Below are positions 7,968-54,085 of a stretch of 64,000 nt of DNA, piece by piece. Origin of the DNA: Capitulum mitella (taxonomy: Eukaryota > Arthropoda > Thecostraca > Pollicipedomorpha > Pollicipedidae); NCBI GenBank assembly GCA_030062745.1, contig CP099846.1:22806701-22870700 (forward strand), given 5' to 3'. Under the pieces are notes generated by a model, which did no database searches, was not told the origin of the DNA, and saw nothing but the letters and a program-made list of their open reading frames with translations. The translations under genes were made by a program, and so were the position numbers. Position 1 is the first letter of the stretch; each line of letters starts with the position of its first letter.

Positions 7968-9620
7968 CGGAGCCGGGCGGCCGCGGCCGCCGCTCGATAT
8001 TTCGTCAAGGTAGTTTTGACAGAGCGAACACAATGGACGTTTTATTTTTGTAATGTGCTGGCGCGCCGCCAGGCAGCAGGCGTCGACACGGCGGGCGGAG
8101 GCGCCGAGAGCGGCCTGCGTAGTTCCCGCTGACGCCGCGGCGCGGCGCTGCCGTCGTAGCCGGCCTTACCGGCTGACCACGCCCGCAGAGTACGGGGCTT
8201 TGATATTATGACTCTTGGTCCACAGTGTCTGGTATCGATAACGAGGCTTGACGAAACGACCTGTTTTGGTCCAAGAACAAGCCGGGTATCGCGAAGACGG
8301 GTTGCATCAGGGTATCATTACATGTATCTTTGCAGTATCACGTATGACGAGGCTTCGTGGTGTTTGATGTCCGGTTTTTGGATAAACATAGCACTTCCGT
8401 CGACCCGAACGCATAAACCTGCTTTACATGCTGGTGAAATAATTCATATATTTTGCGTTTCACACAACCACATTGTCTGCGTATAGCTACGTCTTCCGCT
8501 GCCATGTCGAATGCTACCATTTCAGACGCGTCCTCGCATTAATGTCTCTAGTTACTCACTCTTTTTGCCATGGATACCGGTAACAGCAAACTTTAGAGAT
8601 GTGAATCCTATCTTCAGATCTCTATGGCTCTGTTCAAGACTTTTGCGTCGAGCACTGGAGGGATATCTCGTTTGAACAGGTTGTTAACTGTCCCCTCTTC
8701 CCATGACCCGCAATCTATCAGGCTTCACTGGGTACGTCTCTCATTGATTTTCTAACGGTTCCGGGCTTTCAGAATCCCTCGTATTTCCTGTCGGTCTTGA
8801 CAACGCAATTATCCACACCGGTTATTGTCGAGCGCACTAAATCGTACGAGTTATTGCCCGGTGCGCTGAATCGTAACAAATGCCCGACCACTCTCACAAC
8901 TGTCATAGCGGTGACCCCGTTTCGCGGCCGATGACAGTTCCCGAGACGTCCCGCTCCGTCGCCCCGCCCGCCGCGTCCCAGCCGGGCTCGAATTTCACGG
9001 TCCGCACCGCCGACGAGCTGCGTCACAATCTAACTCTTTCTCCGCGCTGAAATGCGCCGGCTCGCCCTGCATTCATCGCGTAATTACACCTTTTTGTGGG
9101 CGGCGGCCGCCGTGCCCGCGCTGCCGGCCGCCGGCTCCTCCACACCGTCGATACGCATCTCATCGCCGGCGCCGGCCGCGCCGCCGCCGCCGCCGCGTCG
9201 CTTTGTCCGGCCGGCCGCCTGATTGGGAATTCTGTCCATCCCCGCCGGACATCCACCAATCAGTCCAAATCCAATAATATTCGCCTGTCAGTTCGGGATG
9301 ATAAGGCCCCAATCACCGGCCGGCCGCGTTACACATAACTGTAACCCTTCCGCGGCGCGCGCCGAGGGGCGCCGGCCGGAGGGGCCGATATTGGCGATGC
9401 CGGCCGCGCGCCGCCGCCGGCCCCTGATTGACTCGCGACGCGTGCTGTCGGCGGAGTGATTGCGGCCGCGCGGTGACGTCACGGCTGACCGGGCCGTGGC
9501 CGGAGGAGGTCGCGCGGGTCGCTGGACGGCGGCGCGGGGCCGCTGTCACGGCGCCGGCCGGCTGCGCGGTGGGTCTATGTCGTGTGTGCTCAGGCGGCCG
9601 TGTGACTGTAGCAGCGTGGA

Positions 9621-16553: not shown

Positions 16554-17394
16554 CCCAGGTACGGTTTACAGCCGTCTGATGGATGGCGGCGCTCTCCTCC
16601 GGCGGCCGAGGCCGGGCAAACATCCCGGACCGGCGGCCGGCCGAAATGCGCCTCTTCATGGCCTCCGGCGCGGCTGGCCTTTCCGCGCGTTTGCACTCAG
16701 TTTGGCAATTATTTGCCGTGGCCGACGCGCATTACGAGACCGGGAAAGAGTCGCGCTGGCCAAACACAGTTCGACTCTGAGGAGTCGGTGGAACTTGGTG
16801 CCGGCGCCGCGGCCGGCCGGGGCTGGCCTCCTCGCCCGCGCCGGAGACGCGGCTCGGAAGGCCGGGATTAACGCTCGTCAGTGCGCGTGCCAGATGGAAG
16901 AGCTTCGCTGACGATCGGCGCGGCGCCTGCAACGCTGCGGAGCGCGTGTTATCATTGGCCGCGCGTTGTTATTTACGCCTACCGCCGGCCGGGCCCGGCT
17001 CGGCAGACAATCGTTTCCATGGGCGAGGAGAACGCCGGCTATTTTTACCCGGGGCAGCGCCTCTGGGGCGGCCCGCCGCCCGAGACCTAACCTGCACTAA
17101 CCCCGGGGTCGATAGCGGCAGAGTCGGCGGCCGGGTCAGCGCGAAGCCCTGACGTCACAGGTCGCGGGTCACGACCCGAGCAGAAGCTGCGTCAAGCTCA
17201 CCGACCGCTGGGCTCCCTCTAGCGGTCATCGGCGGCTCTCAAAAATCGTACCGACAGCCCATCGCCGCTCTTGACAGGCGCTCATGCAAGCGCCGGCGGC
17301 CGCCACGGCCGGGCCCCGAAATAGGCTCAGCACGGCGGCGGCGCGGCCGACGCCGCCGGTGGGCCGGCCGCCCGCCGGCCGTCCACCCACCTCC
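16081..17394. other. Upstream flank and CpG-rich 5' shoulder of the promoter island
   Basis: Ordinary sequence to about 16370, then strongly CpG-rich, with a (CCG)n tract at 16527-16556, GGCCGGCC runs and a full CRE palindrome at 17150. Frames here are composition-driven; none continues into the exon at 17736. Confidence 0.4.
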
Positions 17395-17735
17395 ACCTGA
17401 TCAATTCATATCTCGGCGGGCGCGGCACCGCCCGCCGACGCCGTCCGCCTATCGGCCGGCCGGCCGGCCGCCAGGCGCCTCCCCCTCACCTGGGCGCCGC
17501 TTATCATACCGGTTATGACAGGTTATGCGGCCAGGCTCCGCCCCGCGCGATATGATATGATATTACCTGCGCTGCGATTCGGCGGCGCCGAGGGCCCGCC
17601 CGCCGGCCGGCGCGCCGCCGCGCCGCCCGCTCAGTTGCCGGCCGACCGGGCAGCCGGGCGTGTGGCAGCAGCGCGCGCAGCAGCGGCCGCCGCGCCGCCA
17701 GCCAGCGAGCGAGCCGCAGCGCGCCAGGGGCCGGC
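17395..17735 (+). promoter_or_regulatory. Putative promoter and 5'UTR of the SNAG-type gene
   Basis: CpG-rich DNA just before the start codon. It holds a (GGCC)n run near 17454-17472, a short AT-rich patch with CATACCGGTTATG (Grainyhead-like ACCGGTT core) near 17507, a repeated ATATGATATGATAT near 17550, and TCAGTT at 17631-17636, which fits the arthropod initiator TCAKTY. With the A at 17633 as +1 the 5'UTR would be about 100 nt. No TATA box stands at -30, and no proper DPE is found at +28 (GTGTG; a CGTG lies a little upstream). The start site is an inference. Confidence 0.35.
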
Positions 17736-17811
17736 ATGTCGCGACGGAAGCAGGCGCGGCCGATCCGCCACCTGGACTCGGACGGCTCGGCGGAGATCGC
17801 GCTCGGCAATG
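17736..17811 (+). CDS. First coding exon of a SNAG/NuRD-motif C2H2 zinc-finger transcription factor (SALL/FOG/BCL11/ZNF423-type), partial
   Basis: Seen: ATG with a purine at -3 (GCCGGCATGT) opens 25 codons starting MSRRKQARPIRHLD and continuing with an acidic, small-residue stretch (DSDGSAEIALGN). One further base then precedes GTGAGT, giving AATG|GTGAGT, an excellent splice donor that leaves a phase-1 exon. Without splicing the frame stops after about 41 codons, so it is too short for ordinary ORF calling. Known: MSRRKQ-x-[KR]-P at the extreme N-terminus recruits the NuRD complex through RBBP4/7 in SALL, ZFPM (FOG), BCL11 and ZNF423/521 nuclear repressors; in SALL genes the first coding exon is similarly short and the zinc fingers lie in later exons. 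Inference: this is the 5' end of such a gene, SALL-like being my first guess because of exon length. No C2H2 (CxxC...HxxxH) exon is visible downstream, so the assignment within the group is open. Upstream in-frame codons stay open for about 100 nt, but the motif only works at residue 1, which fixes the start. Confidence 0.72.
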
Positions 17812-17817
17812 GTGAGT
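17812..17817 (+). other. 5' splice donor of intron 1
   Basis: GTGAGT directly after AATG; the match to the metazoan donor consensus (MAG|GTRAGT) is complete on the intron side. It ends the SNAG-type exon in phase 1. Confidence 0.65.
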
Positions 17818-20800
17818 GGCCGGTGGCGGCCGACCCCGAACGGCCCGGGGCGGTCTGAGCCGACCCGGGCTGACCTGGGCCGACCTTCTGGGACTCGCGG
17901 GGTGTGCTGGCGGTGCGTACGGGACTGCTGTGGAGTGACGGGCGTTATAAAGGCTTTGAAGAGGACCGCAAAGTGGATTTCTTGGAAAGCGGAGCATTCT
18001 ACATTTCATGGCAGAGTGCTTTTGTTGAAGTTTTTATGTATTCACCTGCGGCTCCGCTTGAGTTTGCTTCGGAGAGGATTTTTTACTACGCCTTGAAAGT
18101 TGCATTACTGTTGTGGGATATCTGTTGCTATTTGGACATGGCGCTTAGCTATCTTTTATCTTATTTTACTCATCTGATAAACCTGAATTTCGAATACCAA
18201 AGTAAATTGGTTCCATTTACGGATAAATTGCTTATAGCGCATTTCAAAGTTAATTTAGTCTTACAGTAACTGATATTTCGCGGAAAGGAAAGGAAGCCAC
18301 ATCGAAAAATCCTTCAAGTGATCGAAAGGCGTCATAGCAGTGGAACTTGCAAAGATCAGTCGCCTCTGAAGTGCAGTATCGCTGGCACTGAATTGCGGTA
18401 AGCTTCCTCGTTTTATTTTACGGCCGAGGCCGTCTCTCTGTCCGTGGCCGTTGGGCAAAACGTCCGAGAGGCTCGTGAACAAGATTTATCAGATTGCTCA
18501 TTCCCTGGCCGGCCGGCCGGTCGCCTCGCGTCTCGCCAGCCCCGTCCGACACGATTCCCAGCCCCGACTGCCAACTCGTCCGCGACACAAATTATCAGCA
18601 AATGTGGGGAAAGGAATATTTTTTATGTGTAGTATTTCTATGTCAGACGATGTATGGTGCTGATGAAATGTCAAGTTTTCTCTTTACAATGATGCTGCAT
18701 ATGTTTTATTTATTTTGTTTGCTTTCACGCGTCTGAACAGCAGAGGTTATGCTCTCAAAATATTTCAATATGGCCTCAGTACCACACTAACCGTTTTCAT
18801 AGCCGAAAAGCACCTGAATCACAAGCTAAAGCTTCTTGTCACGCCTGCTATTTTCGACTGGACACAATAAAACACAATATTATTACGTTTCGTTTTAACA
18901 ACCACAATGGCATGAAAAAATGCTACGCTGAACATCTTAGAGTTAGACGAAGCGAACTCGGTCGCCTTCGGACAAAGCTGCGGAACACTGCCCAGGTTTC
19001 TGATATTTTCGCGAGCGTTAGCGCCGTGGGTAATGGGCGTAATCAGCAGCCGGCTTCTTCATTCGTCACTGTCCGGTCGTGGCAGCCATCAAAAGCCTGT
19101 GAAACCAGCCGCCACCTGCGCCGGCCGTCTCGACGAGCTTTCACCAATTCAAATCGCCGGGAAGTGGCGTGAAATTGCCGGCGTTTCCCGCCAGCGACAG
19201 AGAGTACCTGGTGCGAGGGCCTGCTAGCCATAGCTGTGCGGCCTGTGATGGCAACGACTCAATGTAGTGGCTCAGGCGCACTGCAGTGAACTGATGATGC
19301 TGCTCTGCGAAGCCCGTGTTGGCACGCCGTCGTCAGTTTTTAATGGAAGGCACGGCGGTCTGTTAGTTGAGATGTTCGGTGATGTGCAGCTCTAAAAAGC
19401 CAGCACCCCCTTGCGTCTGCCTTCATCGCGCAGGGCTGTCTATGAAAAGATATGTTTAAACTGAAAGATTGCTATCCACGACTAATTTGTAAGAATGGAT
19501 GTTGAAATAAAGAAGGATAAGCATCAAATGAACTAAATTCGGATCCAGAAATGCTATCTTCTGAAGAGCATAAAGCATGTGTTGACGCAGATATTGCCCT
19601 TTAATTATCCGTACTTCTGAGGCCTTGTTTTCCGTAAGACGTGCTTTATGATGATGTGATGCAAGCCTAATGTTTGTGTTCTCCAACGCCCGCCGTATAA
19701 AAGCCAGCTGAACTAACGCTAATAATATCTGTGTAGAAACACTGAAAAAACAAAAGACGTACGAGGGATTTTAGGGCAATTACATCACTGGCTGCCGGAT
19801 AAGAAAATATAAAAATATACAAATCTGATTAAATGAGAGTCTTCCATGTTCGCCATTCCAAACCTTTCGTCGAATGTATTGGAACGCCATCACGAAGGAG
19901 GACTCGTACAGCACTTTCCTTCCATGGATTGCGTAATTATCGATGGCCACAGATCACAGATATTGAATCACGACCATCATAAATGTGAGAAGATTCTGTG
20001 TCCTGAATCCAAGTCCCTGATTTGGCTATTTTTTCATGCTACAAAACAGTCTGTTTCATTTTTAAATATCAGCGAGGATCTATGAGAAGCCAGAAAACCT
20101 TACACGAAGCAAATTCAAATCTACCCGTACAGAGATTACCTCAATGGGTAATGAGCACAAGACGAATGGGAATATTCTCCTGACTTTTGAGTTTAGGGTG
20201 CTGAGGACTGCAGTCGCGTGCAGCTGTTTGATGCTGAGCGCACCGCAATGCCGTTATTATTCCACGGCACCAGGCGGCCGGTAGAACGTTAGTAACGAAT
20301 GAAATGAAAAAATAAATGCTTCGTTTGCAAGATCACGTCAAAACATGGATGGATGCCGTAGGTCGTCGTAACCACATGTTTCTCGTGCAGCAGCTTAGCA
20401 AGTCCACGATTGAGAACAGAGCTCAATGAGAATGGGAAATTAAAATTGCAGTTCTGATATCCACAATGGAAAAAGAAATCTCCTGTGCTTGTACTGTCAT
20501 ACGAATCTGTACATTCTGTACTCTAAATGAATGATTGGGCCGTAAGGTGATATGGTTAGATGCTACCCTTATGTTTATTTCTGGGGAAAACTTTCTGGCC
20601 ATATCTATTCCATGCTTCATTAATTGTGACTTAAGCGTTTTGTTAATAATAAACGTAAGACGCTTTATTTGCGAGTGATTGCTAGTGAACATTTGTGTTT
20701 TCATTCTTGATCCTAGACATTAATGTATTTTCATACTGGGACTTTTAAATCTTGGCACTCATTGCAGACTGTTGGACACAGTGCCCTATGCACATACATA

Positions 20801-23860: not shown

Positions 23861-23885
23861 CCCCTGATTACACGTCGCTCCCTGC

Positions 23886-24153
23886 CCAGCATCGTGTGAG
23901 GTGAGCATGTGCTCGAGATCCAGCAGTCAGATGGACTGAGCACGTGCTGCCCTCCCAGCATTCAGATGTGATGAGCACGTGCTCACACCCAGCAGTCGGG
24001 TGAGGTGAGCTCGTGCCCACCGACCAGCAGTATGAGATGAGCACGTGCTCACTGCCCAGCAGTCAGATGATATGAGCAGTGCTCCTCGTCCAGCAGTATG
24101 AGGTGAGCACGTGCTCGTCGTCCAGCAGTCAGACTAGGCGAGCACGTGCGTCG
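23886..24153. repeat. Eight-unit tandem array of GAGCACGTGCTC palindromes (32-35 bp period)
   Basis: Each unit reads CAGCAGTCAGATG then about GAGCACGTGCTC plus a short variable linker. The palindrome centre starts at 23906, 23941, 23976, 24010, 24042, 24075, 24108 and 24143. Five copies keep the E-box CACGTG exactly; the others are CATGTG, CTCGTG and a 1-bp deletion. The array directly abuts the GA tract. It is a minisatellite by form; a regulatory role is inference. Confidence 0.85.
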
Positions 24154-53840: not shown

Positions 53841-53848
53841 GCCACACC

Positions 53849-54085
53849 CAGGGACGTAGCCAAGGGGGAGAAATGCTGCCCCCCCAAGCCAAGAGGTCTT
53901 CACTAGATATAGAGCGATTTCGCACGAATACGGAATAGCGATCATGTATGTGTTGCAAAAGCAAATATTACATGTGTTCCTGTGGGTTAAATATAATGTC
54001 AGTTACATAAAATTGATGTTTTTTTCCTATGAATTCGACATTCGCCCCCTCCCCCCCCCCGAGGAAAGTCCTAGCCACGTGCCTG
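53849..54085. mobile_element. hAT-type MITE, 237 bp, with perfect 8-bp target-site duplication
   Basis: Terminal inverted repeats CAGGGACGTAGCCAAGG (left) and CAGGCACGTGGCTAGGA (right, read on the minus strand), 13 of 17 alike, start with the hAT-typical CAG. GCCACACC stands immediately outside both ends (53841-53848 and 54086-54093). The interior is AT-rich with no transposase. The left 40 bp match the right end of the element at 44754, so both belong to one family. Confidence 0.85.

Follow-up and report, generated by a model that had tools for sequence, protein, structure and literature searches.

The exon at 17736-17811 and its reading frame

We analysed a 64-kb stretch of the genome of the barnacle Capitulum mitella (the window, C8:22806701-22870700), in which a short coding exon lies on the forward strand at 17736-17811 and runs directly into a GTGAGT splice donor. 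Positions above 64000 continue the window numbering downstream, and subtracting 64000 from them gives positions in the adjoining stretch, L003. The exon had been proposed from the letters of the window as a 25-codon first exon from a developmental zinc-finger repressor carrying an N-terminus that recruits the NuRD complex, and its coordinates, translation and donor were all confirmed. Taken together with the exons that lie beyond the window and with a second gene of the same design elsewhere in the genome, 17736-17811 is, with high confidence, first-exon coding sequence of a spalt (SALL) gene, spliced to a large zinc-finger exon at 68349-71255 and supplying the encoded protein with a NuRD-recruiting tail. 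The features at this end of the gene are as follows.

17736-17811, forward strand: predicted coding part of spalt/SALL exon 1 by translation (MSRRKQARPIRHLDSDGSAEIALGN plus the first base of a Gly codon), with a matching exon in a paralogue on contig C12
Residues 1-12 of the 17736-17811 exon, forward strand: predicted NuRD/RBBP4-binding motif, from sequence
17812-17817, forward strand: splice donor GTGAGT, phase 1 (25 codons and one nucleotide precede it), fitting 8/9 consensus positions, with a matching phase-1 acceptor at 68349
17812-64000, forward strand: window part of intron 1, which continues to 68348; exon 2, which holds SALL zinc fingers, begins outside the window (L003:4349 = C8:22875049)

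The encoded peptide starts MSRRKQARP and thus contains the Arg-Arg-Lys residues of such tails, and its first 12 residues, MSRRKQARPIRH, correspond to the N-terminal NuRD motif of SALL proteins, here linked to SALL exons by the splicing that we infer below. A degenerate DNA pattern for MSRRKQxxP matched once on the two strands of the 64 kb and in 0/100 dinucleotide shuffles; base composition predicts 0.00045 chance matches for a window and about 3.3 across the entire genome searched (477 Mb, 16 contigs), so that the pattern alone is no proof at genome scale. The exact string MSRRKQARP was not found in a literature search. The donor context, ATG/GTGAGT (the slash marks the junction), was scored against the general consensus. 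Without splicing, the frame meets a stop at 17856-17858 after 40 residues, which is why routine calling of open reading frames would overlook the exon, as the original prediction had argued; in the other direction the frame is open for 60 codons, back to a stop at 17553.

A chance open stretch beside a chance GTGAGT could arise in GC-rich DNA, and the GC content is indeed 71-77% in 500-base windows across 17001 to 18000, with nine GTGAGT strings on the forward strand of the window. Against such an origin stand the failure of shuffled sequences to yield the motif, the phase-matched SALL exons downstream and the conserved paralogue copy, whose mostly silent changes already contradict it, and we regard the probability of a chance exon as negligible. 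The further claim, that no other sequence in the 64 kb combines a recognisable protein signature with an in-frame donor, holds for the motif, which is unique, and for zinc fingers, since a strict C2H2 pattern found no match in the six frames of the window. For Pfam domains it holds for the 10 longest of the 130 stop-to-stop frames of at least 120 amino acids, none of which gave a match at E 0.001.

SNAG domains (Snail, GFI1) are likewise short N-terminal repression peptides on C2H2 proteins, and they recruit LSD1. The label of SNAG-type that the exon had been given is nevertheless wrong: SNAG proteins begin with MPRSFLVK, the N-terminus of the Snail family that is also common to GFI proteins (PMC10435889; papers are cited here for the passages drawn on), whereas MSRRKQARP belongs to the MSRRKQ, FOG-repression or SALL 12-residue motif (PMC8079813, PMC5892016).

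Zinc-finger exons beyond the window

When the strict C2H2 pattern was applied to both strands of 264 kb (the window and the next 200 kb), it gave six matches, all on the forward strand between 69239 and 71646, and from their sequences all six look like Spalt/SALL fingers. The spalt partner exons start 4.3 kb beyond the end of the window, on the same strand as exon 1, and a phase-1 acceptor is present at 68349. The main exon-2 frame (68228-71359) contains a Q-rich stretch together with the ZF2 and ZF3 groups. A PDB search with this frame matched 138 sequences at E 1e-5, and among the best 60 of these the closest solved relative is Sal-like protein 4 (E 4.7e-46), in a match that spans the ZF2 pair and the SETSKLQQLV...CVICQRVLSC linker/ZF3 region. 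The paired C2H2 fingers of the Sal-box type are present as ZF2, ZF3 and ZF4: the first pair is CRYCGKVFGSDSALQIH and CNICGNRFTTKGNLKVH, the ZF3 group consists of CVICQRVLSCKSALQMH and CKICSRAFTTKGNLKTH plus CPVCHKRF, and the last pair, CNLCFKVFACQSALDIH and CPRCDKGFSTK/GNMKQH, lies in two further exons and was assigned to ZF4 by eye. The Q-rich stretch between the N-terminus and ZF2 is LQSTLFTLQQQQVFQMNLIQQLQAQL (in P0002, also by eye).

Around the point where the exon-2 frame opens, six pyrimidine-AG sites were examined, and three of them (68199, 68256 and 68349) are in phase 1. The site at 68199 sits upstream of the open frame, and that at 68349, CTCTCCGCAG/GCTCGG, is preferred to 68256, since a strong acceptor occupies the equivalent codon position in the paralogue. 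The resulting model joins 17736-17811 to 68349-71255, 71626-71762 and 73553-73712 and reads through 1093 codons with 0 stops; its introns are of the GT..AG type with consistent phases, its donors fit 8, 8, 8 and 6 of the nine consensus positions, and intron 1 is 50.5 kb long.

The zinc-finger arrays of BCL11A/B, FOG1/2 and ZNF423/521 differ from that of SALL, and the N-termini of ZNF423/521 share the MSRRKQxxP motif. The same motif, which binds NuRD/RBBP4, is found in BCL11A/B and FOG1/2 (ZFPM) (PMC8079813, PMC10679446), and a fusion at exon 2 of BCL11B replaces its first 19 residues, so that the first exon of that gene is evidently short (PMC4505893). An exon of another MSRRKQ-type repressor (FOG/ush, BCL11 or ZNF423/521), with the downstream spalt exons as coincidental neighbours, would therefore start in a similar way. 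The 200 kb downstream, however, hold no strict C2H2 matches other than the spalt fingers, the phase of exon 1 fits spalt exon 2, and an equivalent exon 1 occupies the matching position in the paralogous spalt gene; this alternative is accordingly very improbable. The original prediction had left the family open among SALL, FOG, BCL11 and ZNF423/521, and the linked exons single out SALL and speak against the other three: the exon belongs to SALL because phase-compatible SALL exons lie just past the window and a paralogue shares its exon-1 design. The same two observations support the proposal of a NuRD-type first exon.

The ZF5 pair has been lost in Drosophila Salm and others. Here, a regular expression found no ZF5 pair in the 200 kb downstream and no further C2H2 finger there fits ZF6; the 3' end of the gene model is provisional. 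With human SALL1-4, Drosophila Salm/Salr and Daphnia SALL the model shares the MSRRKQ N-terminus, the Q-rich stretch, the ZF2 pair, the ZF3 pair with its single finger and the ZF4 pair; it differs from them in having no convincing ZF1 in exon 2 or intron 1, no ZF5 found within 200 kb downstream and an intron 1 of ~50 kb. Its seven C2H2 fingers equal the count reported for flies and Daphnia (PMC2889900), and the corresponding motif of human SALL2 is printed as MSRRKQRKPQ (PMC7937961). The gene is an ordinary member of the well-known SALL family, and the value of exon 1 lies in correct annotation, with the paralogue comparison and the lack of a convincing ZF1 as modest leads. Among the matches listed in a literature search, no paper on a barnacle spalt/SALL gene was found.

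It is also conceivable that most transcripts start elsewhere, for instance at the ATG at 68273, and encode a Spalt protein without the NuRD tail, exon 1 then acting as a regulated switch. The exon-2 frame has no stop between 68228 and the acceptor and includes this in-frame ATG (L003:4273), and human SALL2 has two such isoforms, E1 with the motif and E1A without it (PMC7937961). The frame of the paralogue, on the other hand, opens just 16 bases ahead of its acceptor and has no ATG there. We consider predominant use of a tail-less start unlikely, and it complements rather than contradicts the assignment of exon 1 to spalt.

A second spalt gene and shared non-coding elements

The comparison with the paralogue and the sequence ahead of exon 1 add the following features.

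C12:24760396-24797510, reverse strand: second spalt gene, identified by protein search, with its own MSRRKQ first exon
17463-17610, forward strand: conserved non-coding element close to the promoter, which shares 86% identity over 148 bp with an element upstream of the paralogue exon 1
7982-8105, forward strand: conserved non-coding element ~9.6 kb upstream of exon 1, in collinear order with one upstream of the paralogue (C12:24802495)
64868-64990 (L003:868-990): conserved non-coding element, collinear between C8 and C12, ~3.4 kb upstream of exon 2
17631-17636, forward strand: TCAGTT, a possible transcription start by match to the arthropod-type initiator consensus

Searching the whole genome with the protein encoded by exon 2, with scores computed for 46 of 18190 first-look candidates, gave 89 matches. 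Besides the locus itself, the scored candidates included one other clear spalt gene, as two stretches on the reverse strand of C12 with 59% and 54% identity; the remaining matches, at E 9.3e-13 or weaker, were taken as generic fingers without individual inspection. In the 50 kb upstream of the C12 gene, where its first exon was sought, C12:24797510-24797429 encodes MSRRKQPRPSRHLDRPGQHWPQPGPGN plus one base, followed by GTAGGT in phase 1. The paralogue peptide starts MSRRKQPRPSRHLD, its intron 1 spans about 35 kb, and its exon-2 acceptor, TTTCCTCAG/GCTCCGAAGAC at C12:24762615, is also in phase 1 and falls at the codon that corresponds to 68349. A 75% match to the exon 1 region on contig C9 was rejected as GC-rich DNA without the motif.

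Residues 1-14 of exon 1 are identical at 12/14 positions between the copies, and their alignment score was reached by 0/1000 shuffles, compared with 230/1000 for residues 15 onward. The first 14 codons, which contain 10.7 silent and 31.3 replacement sites, carry five silent and two replacement changes (Fisher p 0.009), so that the exon 1 peptide, with its mostly silent changes, looks selected, although the numbers are small. Two spalt copies are thus found here, compared with one in the Daphnia survey as given in PMC2889900. An ancient genome duplication reported for barnacles (PMC11331182) would explain the pair, and the copies are possible ohnologues.

When the window and a further 16 kb were compared with the paralogue region by BLASTN, nine matches resulted; a reversed-sequence control gave none. 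Five of the nine fall in exon 2, three are collinear and non-coding (at about 7988-8102, 17463-17610 and 64868-64990), and one is a non-collinear minus-strand match. The last, at 53848-54085, is a 72% match to a stretch beside the paralogue promoter element (C12:24798175) and perhaps a GC-rich repeat; it was left out of the collinear set because it is not collinear with the other matches.

The element at 17463-17610 has an ungapped core of 125 bases with 13 mismatches (90% identity between the copies), with no codon position favoured (3, 4 and 6). Its alignment score is 196, compared with a maximum of 45 among 200 random intron pairs, and a genome search that skipped very common words placed it in two places only. 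It holds repeated GTTATG and CACCTG/TACCTG strings and is likely a conserved core regulatory element. Between the TCAGTT at 17631 and the start of the exon at 17736 there is no ATG; four upstream ATGs (17515-17557, in a scan from 17401) precede TCAGTT, and three looser initiator matches occur at 17401, 17406 and 17504.

The predicted NuRD tail and the ZF1 finger

Exon 1 would place the 12-residue tail at the N-terminus of Spalt, where its Arg-Arg-Lys could engage the acidic face of RBBP4/7, thereby recruiting the NuRD deacetylase complex; with the Spalt fingers bound to DNA, NuRD brought in through exon 1 would then silence the target genes. By analogy with related proteins, we infer both the binding of this peptide to RBBP4/NuRD in the barnacle and the genes that might be repressed. 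The N-terminal 12 residues of SALL proteins recruit NuRD (PMC5892016), the RRK of such tails contacts the acidic face of RBBP4/7, with positive charge outweighing exact sequence (PMC10679446), and the tail of BCL11B is needed for NuRD binding in vivo (PMC8079813). Serine phosphorylation in the BCL11B tail impedes the binding of MTA proteins (PMC7158892).

A number of observations weigh against the assignment of exon 1 to spalt as a NuRD-recruiting first exon. The splicing of exon 1 to exon 2 is predicted from phase-matched signals, 68256 is a second usable phase-1 acceptor, and an additional phase 1-1 exon may lie between the two. The 25 residues of exon 1 alone gave no match in Pfam and none in PDB with phmmer, which is unsurprising at this query length. 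Exon 1 was not among the BLASTN matches between the C8 and C12 loci at E 0.001, and a genome search with the exon-1 region did not recover the paralogue; both outcomes follow from the short length of the exon and its diverged silent sites. The Fisher test has seven differences behind it. In pulldowns, BCL11B fragments without the motif also bind RBBP4/7 (PMC8079813), so the motif is not the sole conceivable contact. Finally, on the forward strand of 17812-72000 no whole ZF1 (C2HC) pattern was found besides the SALL C2H2 fingers, and half-patterns of a split ZF1 gave two matches (48701 and 53945) that were unconvincing by eye.

The last point bears most directly on the biology, given that the tail motif and the ZF1 finger are reported, with hardly any exceptions, to be either both present or both missing (PMC5892016). 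Within the window part of intron 1 (17812-64000, forward strand), whole C2H2 or C2HC finger patterns gave no match, and three pattern matches in intron 1 of the paralogue were unlike ZF1 by eye. A fragmented or strongly diverged ZF1 is possible. The lack of a convincing ZF1 does not disqualify the gene as a SALL member, because domain losses are reported across the family (PMC5892016). A tentative reading, which we hold to be somewhat less probable than its opposite, is that the NuRD tail has become uncoupled from ZF1 in both spalt copies of this lineage, its inclusion perhaps being switched by promoter choice between exon 1 and the ATG at 68273. If true, this would break a near-absolute bilaterian pairing, and the tail would repress without ZF1-dependent nuclear placement.

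A 76-base exon missed by routine gene finding was thus recoverable from sequence alone, and without it the Spalt protein at this locus would be annotated as lacking its repression tail. Two spalt copies that have kept their tails separately, along with shared non-coding elements, would offer a clean system for the study of retention in a duplicated homeotic regulator. Repression of posterior Hox genes by spalt is described for Artemia, also a crustacean (PMC8173736), and an intact abd-A is reported to be missing from barnacles (PMC11331182), which together make spalt of some interest in a barnacle.

For the window, Rfam at gathering scores and ARAGORN each gave 0 matches, the latter for tRNAs. 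Inside intron 1, 23871-24149 forms a tandem array in which the palindrome GAGCACGTGCTC recurs with periods of 32-101.
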